From the NCBI GenBank assembly GCA_026387665.1, contig JAPLLG010000005.1, positions 1 through 64,000 of the forward strand: a DNA stretch of 64,000 nt. Direction: 5' to 3'. Below are positions 44,990 to 61,272 of the stretch, in pieces (the first letter of the stretch is position 1; the number at the start of each line of letters is the position of its first letter). The position numbers and the translations under genes are program-made. This stretch comes from Nitrospirota bacterium (GTDB lineage: Bacteria; Nitrospirota; Nitrospiria; Nitrospirales; Nitrospiraceae). The notes beneath the pieces are model-generated. The model was not told the origin of the DNA and did not search any database. It was given only the letters and a program-made list of their open reading frames with translations.

Positions 44990-45387
44990 CCCACTAAATA
45001 GGTAGACCGCGATAGCTCGGCTTGGCCCTCGCCAAGCAGTATCCAATGCTCCTTCCAAGCTTGCTCGTCTCTCCCCTCCCCACTAGGGCGAGATGATCCC
45101 TCTTGCGGGTGGCGCTGACATGGGAGCCCAGCCGCCTGCAGCGGGGCCCCACACCGGGCGGGGTGCGAAGCCGGCTGGGCTGGTCAGCGACAGGACCCGC
45201 TCTTTGGACCTTATGGAATTTCTCCCCTCCCCTCTGGAATTCCTCCCCATCCTTCAACTCGTCGCTCGTATCTCGTTGTTCGTCGTTCGCACGGCGCCAC
45301 CAACTCAACTCCCTGTTATCGCTAGTCATTCAATCCACGTGTTCTCATTCTTCAAACCCGGCACAATCCCTGCGATGTCATCTATAT
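44990..45387. other. Intergenic region with no gene seen
   Basis: About 400 bases between divergent gajA and the receiver-protein gene. Open frames run through it in several frames, but none matches a protein. A run of CGTCGCTCGTATCTCGTTG-type direct near-repeats at about 45258-45295 resembles simple dispersed repeats. The promoter of the receiver/efflux operon should be here. Confidence 0.4.
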
Positions 45388-45957
45388 ATGACGACGCATC
45401 CCTCCATCCTCTTGATCGACGACAGCCCAGGCGAACGCGAGCTCTTTCGCCTCGCGCTCGCTCAAACAGGCCTCGACGTCACCCTCTATACCGAACAAGA
45501 CGCCGAGGCTGCGTTCCATTTTTTCGAGACTCAGTGGATGGCACACGCGGCTATCCAGTCCTATTCGTTAAATCATGACCGGTCCCAAGGCGAGGCGGGT
45601 GGCATGGTCTCCACTGCGCGCGTCGAACGAGGGCCTTCTCAGGCCGCGCGTTCCGCGAGCACAGAGACCATGCCACCTGCCTCGCCATCCCTGATTCTTC
45701 TGGACCTAAATCTCTGCAGTCAAAACGGCTGCGACCTACTGAAACGGCTCCGATCCGATGCCCGATTTGCGGCGATCCCCACCCTCATCTTTACCACCTC
45801 CGACGATCCGGCCGATCTTGCGAATTCCTATAGCTGCGGAGCGAACGGTTATGTGATAAAACCAGGCACCTTTGATGAACTTGTCCACTGCATAACGGAC
45901 CTCTGCCGCTACTGGCTCACATGGAACCGCCCGCTAATGGTTGAAACAGCATGCTGA
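45388..45957 (+). CDS. Stand-alone receiver protein with a repeat-derived insertion
   Basis: The product is 189 aa from ATG 45388. It is a CheY/Rcp1-like receiver with the acidic pair D11/D12 (LLIDDSPGE), phospho-acceptor D106 (LILLDLNL), switch threonine in IFTTSDDP and lysine in GYVIKPGTF. In ordinary receivers the phospho-acceptor is near residue 55. Here about 40-50 extra residues separate helix 2 from strand 3. Residues 68-100 of this extra part are encoded by a complete copy of a dispersed hairpin repeat (45589-45686), with the frame kept. There is no DNA-binding domain. The stop overlaps the RND transporter ATG by 7 bases, so it is co-translated with the efflux system. Confidence 0.85.
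   Translation: MTTHPSILLIDDSPGERELFRLALAQTGLDVTLYTEQDAEAAFHFFETQWMAHAAIQSYSLNHDRSQGEAGGMVSTARVERGPSQAARSASTETMPPASPSLILLDLNLCSQNGCDLLKRLRSDARFAAIPTLIFTTSDDPADLANSYSCGANGYVIKPGTFDELVHCITDLCRYWLTWNRPLMVETAC
45589..45686. repeat. 49-nt-core hairpin repeat, copy A, inside a coding region
   Basis: The 49-nt core 45613-45661 (ACTGCGCGCG to GCGAGCA) is bracketed by 23-nt arms at 45589-45611 and 45664-45686 that are complementary except at one position. The core matches copy B (54374-54422) at 45 of 49 positions, while the arms are unrelated in sequence. The element is in frame within the receiver gene. Confidence 0.9.
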
Positions 45958-54194: not shown

Positions 54195-54297
54195 CTCAAT
54201 CCTTCCCACTTCACGCTTTCTAGCAGACTGCGAAAAATTCGGCATATGCAACATGCGCGATAATCTTACACCGTTTGGCCTTGAGGCTTGAAGCACC

Positions 54298-54464
54298 GCA
54301 GGATGCTCAAACAGTTCGTCCAGCAAGGCCGCAACGAACTATCACTTTTTAAGGGGTGGCTGGGATGATCCCAACTGCGCGCGTCCAACGAGGGCCTTCC
54401 GAGGCCGCGCGTTGCGCGAGCACGGTGATCGTCCCAGCTACCCCGCCCCTTTTCAGCATCCTGC
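54298..54464. repeat. Composite repeat: GCAGGATGCT-type element carrying 49-nt-core copy B
   Basis: Outer ends GCAGGATGCTCAAA (54298-54311) and TTTTCAGCATCCTGC (54450-54464) are inverted with one mismatch. They belong to the same family as the element at 56960. Inside lies 49-nt-core copy B (core 54374-54422) with its own arms at 54353-54370 and 54427-54444, mispaired only by two transitions. The right end touches the tatC stop codon. Confidence 0.88.
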
Positions 54465-55237
54465 TAGCGGACACGGTGGCCGGCCGGTCCCATCGGCAAA
54501 TCCGGATCGAGGGGCAAGCTGATTTCGGTCGGGCCTCCCCGGCCAAAGATGCGGGCGCCAAGAATCCCGATCTCATACAACACCATCAAGGGCACGGCCA
54601 TCAAAAGCATGGTGAAAAGGGTCGCGTCTGGCGTCACGATGGCCGAGAAAATCAAGGCGGCCATGATCGCGTGCTTCCGATACTTCGCTAATGTCGCTCC
54701 GGTTACCACGCCAACCCGCGCCAGAATGGTAAGCACCAGCGGCAACTCGAACGCGCAGCCGAAGATCAGCAGGAATTTGACGTTGAAGTCGATATAGGTC
54801 CCGACGCTCAGGAGCGGAGTCACGTCGTGATCCATGCCGAAGCTGACGAAAAACTCGATGACCAGCGGAAGAATGACGAGATTGCAAAAGATCAAGCCGA
54901 GCGCGAACAGCGCCCCGGCCAGCGCAAACAGCGGGAAGCCCCAGCGTTGCTCCTTGGGCAGCAACGCTGGCTCAATAAATTTCCAGCATTGATAGAAGAT
55001 GACCGGCATGCTCGCCAGGATCGCCGCCAGAAACGACACCTTGATGGAGGCGAAGAGCGCTTCAGTCGGTCCGTAGAAGACCAGCTGGTTGGGAAAGGGG
55101 CGGTTCAGCCAGGCGACCATCTCCCCGGAAAAGGTAAAGGACACCATCAGGGCCACCAACAGCGTGGCCCCGATGATGATCAGGCGATGCTTGACGGTCC
55201 GGATATGCGCGGCAAGGGGATTGAGAATCTGTGCCAT
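54464..55237 (-). CDS. tatC: Twin-arginine translocase subunit TatC
   Basis: The product is 257 aa with six membrane segments. Family sequence includes LNPLAAHIRTVKHRLIIIGA at the N-terminus, FYQCWKFIEPALLPKEQRWG and FGCAFELPLVLTILARVGVV with the conserved glutamate. TatC is the receptor for folded proteins carrying twin-arginine signals. No tatA or tatB gene lies beside it in this window. Its stop codon coincides with the end of a composite repeat, so its 3' end may have been set by the repeat. Confidence 0.95.
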   Translation of the reverse strand: MAQILNPLAAHIRTVKHRLIIIGATLLVALMVSFTFSGEMVAWLNRPFPNQLVFYGPTEALFASIKVSFLAAILASMPVIFYQCWKFIEPALLPKEQRWGFPLFALAGALFALGLIFCNLVILPLVIEFFVSFGMDHDVTPLLSVGTYIDFNVKFLLIFGCAFELPLVLTILARVGVVTGATLAKYRKHAIMAALIFSAIVTPDATLFTMLLMAVPLMVLYEIGILGARIFGRGGPTEISLPLDPDLPMGPAGHRVR

Positions 55238-56920: not shown

Positions 56921-56959
56921 CGCTTCTACCCGTTCTACAAAAAAGCTACATTGCGTCCC

Positions 56960-57087
56960 ACAGGATACTCAAACCGTTCGTCCAGCAAGGCCGCAGGCGA
57001 GTCGAAACCGGAGGCGTACCCTCAGGGGTACGTTGAGGATTTCGATGAGCCGAGAACGAAGCTGGCGAACGGTTTCAGCATCCTGTT
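56960..57087. repeat. ACAGGATACT-type dispersed hairpin element
   Basis: The ends ACAGGATACTCAAACCGTTC and GAACGGTTTCAGCATCCTGT are inverted over about 22 bases with two mismatches. Inside are TCCAGCAAGGCCGCA, shared with the composite element at 54298, and a CGTACCC-TCA-GGGGTACG hairpin. Its right end reaches the stop codon of the lipoprotein gene at 57086. Confidence 0.85.
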
Positions 57088-60178: not shown

Positions 60179-60394
60179 GCGGGTGACCGGGTTGCCCTTT
60201 ACTGCGCGCGTCGGGAAAGAACTTGGACTGTCACTCCTCAAGGGGAGCAGCCGGACGGTTCTTCACTGCGCGCATTGAGGGACCACCCTTTCATCGTGGG
60301 GCCTCAGCGAGCAAGAAGAATGGTCCGGCTGCTCCCCTCCTCCCCTTCTGAGGCCGCGCGTTGCGCGAGCAAGAAGGGCAATCCGGTCGCCCGC
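60179..60394. repeat. Nested 49-nt-core hairpin repeats, copies C (split) and D
   Basis: The outer element has arms at 60179-60199 and 60374-60394 (21 nt, two transition mismatches) and a core split into 60201-about 60224 and 60344-60371. The inner element has arms at 60242-60264 and 60315-60337 (23 nt, two adjacent mismatches) and a full 49-nt core at 60265-60313 that keeps ACTGCGCGC and GCGAGCA at its ends. The outer right end touches the stop codon of the gene at 60394. Confidence 0.9.
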
Positions 60395-61272
60395 TACAAC
60401 TTCCGCCGCACGTCCTTCCACTCCTTCACCACCTTCGCTTTGCGCGGCGCCTCTCCCTTGGCCGGCTCCGGCACCATCACGGCATCGAGACGCCTTTGCA
60501 GGAATGTTTCGGCAAAGGCCTTCGTGCGCCCCACTCCGACTTTCAACGTCTTCCAGCCGTCCGCATGCAAAGCATCGAGCTTCACCCCAAGCGCTGCCGG
60601 ATCGGATGGCAGCACGAGAATATGGCCGACCGGAAACTTTCGATCCTTGAGCCATTGTCTGGCTTGGGCGCTCGCCTGGCTGGTGGAACCAGCCGCCTGA
60701 TCCTGCGTCACCACATAGAGCAGGCTGTAGTAGAACTGCGTGACCTTGCCGAGCTCCTCCGCTGCATCTGGCATCGGGCTCCTGCCCTCCGCTTCCTTCC
60801 CTGGCCAGATCAGGGAAGGCCCCTGCCCGACGGGATCCTCCATGAGCGATGCCATCTCCACCGCCATGATCGGACCGCGCCGTTCCCATACGGCCAGATT
60901 TCCATCAGCCTCGATCGCGGCGACTCTCGGACTATTTCCGATTCGCACGGTGAAAGGGACCGACCCTTTGGCCTTCGGGGTATAGGAAAAGATGGCTCGC
61001 CCATCTCCACCAGTCACTGCAGTCGCGACGACCTTGCCCGCGATAAGCAACTCCAGTGGCTCCCCCCCCAGAACAGCCTCCGTCTTGAAGCCCTTCCAGG
61101 TAAGCGTCGCTTCAATGGTGGCCGATTGATTGGGAGATGTGAGGCGATCCTGAACCGTCAAGGTTCCGGGAATCTTCTCGGCAGCAAATAGGGTGGTGGT
61201 CGCAGTCCAAACGAGGAAGAAAATGAAAAGACCGGCTCTGCGGAAGAATACGCTCATATGCCGCATAGCCAT
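60394..61272 (-). CDS. Secreted protein with Ig-like N-terminal and HAD-like C-terminal parts
   Basis: The product is 292 aa with a signal peptide (AGLFIFFLVWTATTTLFAAE). Residues about 35-125 look like a beta-sandwich (TIEATLTWKGFKTEAVLGGE, FSYTPKAKGSVPFTVRIG). The C-terminal 110 residues (RKFPVGHILVLPSD, ALHADGWKTLKVGVGRTKAF) resemble the lipin/LNS2-like HAD fold without the full catalytic DxDxT motif. The function is unknown. The start is uncertain; ATGs at 61272, 61266 and 61257 are possible. It lies 32 bases after the bcp gene on the same strand, and its stop codon touches a nested repeat. Confidence 0.7.
   Translation of the reverse strand: MAMRHMSVFFRRAGLFIFFLVWTATTTLFAAEKIPGTLTVQDRLTSPNQSATIEATLTWKGFKTEAVLGGEPLELLIAGKVVATAVTGGDGRAIFSYTPKAKGSVPFTVRIGNSPRVAAIEADGNLAVWERRGPIMAVEMASLMEDPVGQGPSLIWPGKEAEGRSPMPDAAEELGKVTQFYYSLLYVVTQDQAAGSTSQASAQARQWLKDRKFPVGHILVLPSDPAALGVKLDALHADGWKTLKVGVGRTKAFAETFLQRRLDAVMVPEPAKGEAPRKAKVVKEWKDVRRKL

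Follow-up and report, generated by a model that had tools for sequence, protein, structure and literature searches.

Several described systems resemble the hairpin repeat analysed here, which was found in a stretch of 64,000 nucleotides (hereafter the window) from a Nitrospirota bacterium. REP, BIME and REPIN sequences, with their RAYT transposases, are high-copy intergenic hairpins in which one strand is special and many copies lie near stop codons, and the same applies to the present family. In contrast, however, their units are 20-40 nt long and have a conserved sequence with a GTAG/CGTC tag, whereas the unit described here is ~98 nt long with free, covarying arms around a fixed 49-nt core, and, unlike in RAYT systems, this genome encodes no Y1 transposase. 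Integron attC sites are likewise long imperfect hairpins that are read by their structure, with sequence-poor arms and conserved unpaired bases. They also share with our family a location after the stop codon of a gene and strand-selective folding, which is seen here as a ratio of wobbles between the two strands of 180:41. In contrast to attC sites, the present copies are dispersed singly rather than in cassette arrays, and their core is internal and strongly conserved. The R''/R' boxes of attC (RYYYAAC/GTTRRRY) were absent by eye from the ends of 48 aligned copies, and a GTCCAAC inside the core of one subtype in the same alignment had the appearance of a chance match.

Bacterial MITEs and small repeats (Correia/NEMIS, ERIC, RUP and BOX) are also short, non-autonomous, dispersed palindromic repeats of intergenic regions, but the terminal inverted repeats of MITEs are common to their copies, whereas here the terminal arms differ (37-50 dissimilar sets). 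Rickettsia palindromic elements are similar in that a palindromic repeat is able to sit in frame within a protein gene, although, comparing the two in outline, a single coding insertion locus was seen here and the family is overwhelmingly intergenic. The hairpin elements of mitochondria (sponges, Allomyces and the GC clusters of yeast) are dispersed and intergenic, occasionally lie in genes and show evidence of mobility (PMC2800124); these repetitive and double hairpin elements resemble the present family as dispersed hairpins with evidence of mobility. Again in outline, the sponge elements have conserved stems and variable loops, whereas here the stems show compensated variation around a conserved core. 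REP/RAYT systems, attC sites and terminal-inverted-repeat MITEs each differ from the family in at least one defining feature that was tested. The family works most like a structure-recognised, strand-selective hairpin, and on this analysis we would place it in none of the systems compared.

A hairpin nested in the loop of its own family

The original prediction was that one copy of the repeat lies inside another copy of the same family between positions 60179 and 60394, and the sequence at these coordinates has the layout claimed. A 98-nt hairpin at 60241-60338, with a short leader, lies in the apical loop of another hairpin, which belongs to the same family. The 21-nt left arm of the outer copy (60179-60199, + strand) pairs with its 21-nt right arm (60374-60394, +) with two G-T wobbles, and the TAG stop codon of the gene at 60394-61272 (-) lies at the edge of the right arm. 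Judged against intact cores, the outer core stops after ACTGCGCGCGTC (60201-60212, +) and picks up again at CCTTCTGAGG beyond a 131-nt insert, its right remnant (CCTTCTGAGGCCGCGCGTTGCGCGAGCA) occupying 60344-60371 (+). The inserted unit (60213-60343, +) consists of a 28-nt leader, the inner 98-nt hairpin and CCTCC, which together replace ~9 nt lost from the loop of the outer (host) copy.

The inner copy (60241-60338) scores 81 bits with the covariance model R2, described below, on the - strand, its wobble-constrained strand being the + strand, and folds with -66.7 kcal/mol (z = -9.5). Its arms (60241-60264 and 60315-60338, +) are 92% complementary and enclose a 49-nt core (60265-60313, +). As had been stated, the outer and inner arm pairs each pair with themselves and are unrelated to one another, the core ends ACTGCGCGC and GCGAGCA are common to both copies, and the intact cores in the window are all exactly 49 nt long (3/3; shuffle expectation, 0 matches).

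At the orthologous 60-kb site the nested pair is also present in three relatives (G010, G017 and G024), with arms partly rearranged in G017 and G024; the hairpin found there in G004 and G043 is un-nested. Inspection by eye of this site in G000 and G043 revealed three full compensatory changes, together with single changes that keep pairing or a wobble, and a check for target-site duplication gave a possible TTGT repeat, although a consistent duplication did not emerge from the analysis.

The window holds two further intact copies. The first (45589-45686, -; R2 102.8 bits) lies in frame within a response-regulator gene (45388-45957, +); this gene has no insert in two relatives (G014 and G043) and carries one or two in-frame hairpins in others. 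The second (54350-54447, -; R2 90 bits) lies between a tatC-like gene and the next gene, within a shell belonging to a second hairpin family. The composite of this shell (CAGGATGCTGA..TTTGAGCATCCTG) and the hairpin that it holds spans 54297-54467 (-) and has copies 90-96% identical elsewhere in the relatives.

Family distribution and constraint on one strand

A search of the genome and its relatives with the core, as originally proposed, revealed a dispersed family. In the 2.64-Mb genome the core-end pattern was found 48 times and its reversed control 0 times, and core length is identical in 47 of the 48. R2, built from these 48 copies, gave 94 matches in the genome, ~6 of them other-strand duplicates of the same copy; the family has about 85 loci here. 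All 24 of the 24 same-genus genomes contain the family (12 to >100 matches each among the matches listed), and most close relatives have 40-100+ copies, again among the matches listed, the copies from relatives being a sample of the best matches. Most genomes of the same taxonomic family carry it at lower numbers, and genomes from other families of the order have 0-1 copies. Real copies were also found in two Nitrospira/Nitrospirae records, one being Nitrospira sp. CG24C, and a Nitrospira sp. record holds four copies. The hairpin family is previously uncatalogued; Rfam 15 gave no match, and no description of it in Nitrospira was found in the open-access literature. Viral contigs, checked for phage carriage, gave 0 matches to one exact core pattern.

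The ~98-nt unit is made up of two ~22-nt arms and the 49-nt core. The proposed tabulation of arm sequences and test for covariation showed the arms paired in 74% of cells, with two-sided changes in every arm pair; for the structure as a whole, changes on both sides were seen in 30 of 39 pairs. Cells with two-sided changes numbered 335 against 131 when shuffled (0/500 shuffles as high), and sliding the pairing partners as a control abolished the covariation. The structure was specified by hand, RNAalifold having recovered just 17 pairs, with most of the arms left out, and the arm alignments ignore larger indels. The arms themselves fall into 37-50 dissimilar sets at identity cut-offs of 65-75%. 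The core forms a hairpin of its own that has invariant UGC/GCA and CGC/GCG steps and compensating changes, and it keeps one or more fixed mismatches and a two-base bulge. On the CTGCGCGC strand each foot is bordered by a pyrimidine tract, with background reached ~12 nt out, and in some subfamilies a ~22-nt leader (CAAGCTCGCTCGTT...) or a second-family shell is added. In 37 of 129 copies CTAC/GTAG was also observed close to the right foot, frequently within the arm itself (for example in the 5' arms, model strand, of L006, L009 and L012), and is at best an ambiguous counterpart of the GTAG tag of REPs.

If selection for pairing acts on one strand, arm transitions should be seen there as G-T/U and on the opposite strand as A-C. 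Several arm mismatches had been described as G-U compatible, and this holds quantitatively on the strand that had been looked at, the CTGCGCGC strand, which is the + strand at the nested locus, and fails on the opposite strand. Among 119 unique copies, 150 wobbles were counted on the CTGCGCGC strand against 36; in a larger set of 131 copies the ratio was 180:41, the excess always being on the CTGCGCGC strand. After collapse to 50 or 37 dissimilar arm sets, ratios of 53:18 and 36:12 were retained. The bias is present in every gene context, at 105:28 for copies codirectional and sense, 14:2 for codirectional and antisense, 15:3 between convergent and 24:6 between divergent genes. As the asymmetry is independent of the direction of neighbouring genes, it shows that the folding of one strand, be it RNA or single-stranded DNA, is constrained. 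Mutation bias arising from the direction of transcription or replication was considered as a cause and rejected, since the asymmetry tracks the element and not gene direction.

The covariation, and a wobble bias that is independent of context and survives arm collapse, support the second of the two readings first suggested, in which a long hairpin is selected because it displays a constant core. The strand asymmetry is a new result beyond confirmation of the nested hairpin and argues against both neutral arm correction and a hairpin functioning in mRNA sense. The same strand-wobble test offers a general way to tell the functional strand of a palindromic repeat.

Mobility, position and the search for an enzyme

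The empty orthologous sites that had been sought were found, and they contain neither arm; arms and core are gained and lost as one. Copies at dispersed sites, as much as 98% identical, sit in unrelated flanks, their similarity stopping at the foot of the hairpin or at a short leader, and the flanks of copies with 80-95% identical arms are unrelated too. The whole hairpin moves, which makes the family a mobile repeat. Nesting is recurrent: the copy at L279:9544, intact here, is split in its apical loop by another copy in G010, and under strict criteria four nested copies represent three independent events (window/G010, L016 and L314), looser criteria giving seven cases.

Gene positions were taken from a simple home-made gene caller based on codon usage. 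By this caller, the model strand of copies between codirectional genes is the mRNA sense strand in 46 of 55 cases and the other strand in 9. Of 80 placed copies, ~32 have their start at -8 to +10 nt relative to the upstream stop codon, and this stop is TAG in 18 of the 32 near cases, compared with about a third in the background. In two cases examined by eye, one of them a second-family insertion (L281:15164-15299), a TGA stop at the empty site corresponds to a TAG supplied at the edge of the insertion. In a complete relative (G096, contig C1), the model strand is the leading strand, as defined by GC skew, in 23 of 32 copies; this sample, which is small and confounded with gene direction, does not fit a simple model in which the folding strand serves as the lagging-strand template. 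On the same contig the copies in a 3.0-4.3 Mb stretch all lie on one strand, those of the other replichore being mixed (32 copies).

A search for a mobilising enzyme gave 0 matches to the Y1 transposase (PF01797) in the 99.8% complete genome and in several high-copy relatives, and 0 matches to reverse transcriptase (PF00078) in the same genome. The latter led us to reject a retroelement, and the two together indicate that this is not an ordinary REP/RAYT system. No repeated gene that might be an autonomous partner was found among the genes beside the copies, and 12 Y1 loci from relatives gave one partial match to the hairpins, at the far end of the locus. Any trans-acting factor would therefore be host-encoded, of another type, or lost.

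A candidate mechanism and the alternatives

We favour, with a probability of roughly 0.6, a non-autonomous, hairpin-forming mobile repeat that is moved in trans, folds on the strand CTGCGCGC...GCGAGCA and lands after stop codons and in loops. The mobile unit would be the whole ~98-nt hairpin with its pyrimidine-rich flanks. The strand CTGCGCGC...GCGAGCA would have to fold, as RNA or single-stranded DNA, probably during mobility, and the fixed mismatches and bulge of the core would be the likely recognition site of a putative trans-acting enzyme, the existence of which we infer. Arm sequence would be nearly free provided that it pairs on that strand, so that arms drift through wobble intermediates and come to differ between copies. 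New copies would arrive mostly directly after stop codons and sometimes in the apical loops of existing hairpins, including those of their own family, and the latter route would lead to the nested arrangement. Loops and the neighbourhoods of stop codons would then be targets of insertion rather than merely tolerated sites. If this mobile repeat is correctly described, selection in a large repeat family acts on how one strand folds rather than on its sequence, and the spread of bacterial hairpin repeats that have no recognisable transposase becomes a testable question. A bolder form, which we put forward only tentatively, is that of a structure-addressed mobile hairpin, in which a host or distant factor would read the constant core in one strand once folded, accept whatever arms are paired and insert copies by stop codons and in hairpin loops, with several hairpin families replacing or nesting in one another across the bacterial family.

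The orientation bias (46:9) and the proximity to stop codons could instead reflect host regulatory structures in mRNA, a stable stem after the stop stalling ribosomes or protecting or processing the transcript, a role proposed for the REPs of E. coli. Translation is lowered when a REP lies <16 nt from the stop codon (PMC12306157), and some sites keep a hairpin while its sequence family changes between species. This role is unlikely, however, as the mRNA-sense strand carries A-C and not G-U (105:28 in these copies), the opposite of what it predicts, and orthologous sites are often empty. Alternatively, transcription of the CTGCGCGC strand may yield an antisense or small RNA that has its own function, the copies being dispersed RNA genes. 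This would account for wobbles on that strand, for the fixed internal mismatches and bulge and for the independence of context, but the flanks offer pyrimidine tracts only and no conserved promoter-like sequence, Rfam has no match, and presence is not conserved at orthologous sites; we consider it improbable as well.

Long palindromes are prone to correction of one arm from the other by template switching in replication, and such correction, acting alone and without selection, could keep arms paired while leaving their sequence nearly free. It gives no reason for wobbles to fall on one strand only, and the core retains its fixed mismatches and bulge uncorrected, which makes it a very doubtful explanation. 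Movement by a RAYT (Y1) transposase as an ordinary REP/REPIN system would fit the high copy number, hairpin form, intergenic location and strand-specific fold, but is highly improbable given that Y1 genes are absent from this genome and from several high-copy relatives, that these hairpins do not flank the Y1 loci found elsewhere in the genus, and that the hairpins are ~3 times the length of a REP with free arm sequence. Least credible of all is the earlier suggestion that arms arise when insertion of the 49-nt core copies the flanking target DNA in inverted form, which fits variable arms around a constant core but is contradicted at every site compared, neither arm being present at empty sites and common arms being found in dispersed copies with unrelated flanks.

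Unrelated long hairpins were also observed at the same intergenic site in different species (L281:14000-14300, L281:800-1800 and orthologues in L308, L309, L310 and L312), some having arms built from short tandem motifs (for example CTGGTCT or TTCGAA); a host need for some hairpin at these sites could be responsible. The second long hairpin family (CAGGATGCTGAAA..TTTGAGCATCCTG, ~125-170 nt) is represented in the window at ~56959-57085 (-) and by the shell at 54297-54467 (-). It has many copies per genome, also directly 3' of stop codons, and its shells often bear a hairpin of the first family as a head. The second-family insertion at L281:15164-15299 has a clean empty site in three relatives, with no target-site repeat seen, and the wobble test on this family gave a bias in the same direction from few counts (21:3). 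A ~100-bp stretch at ~45102-45203 of the window matches many places in related genomes at 82-89% and is another dispersed repeat.
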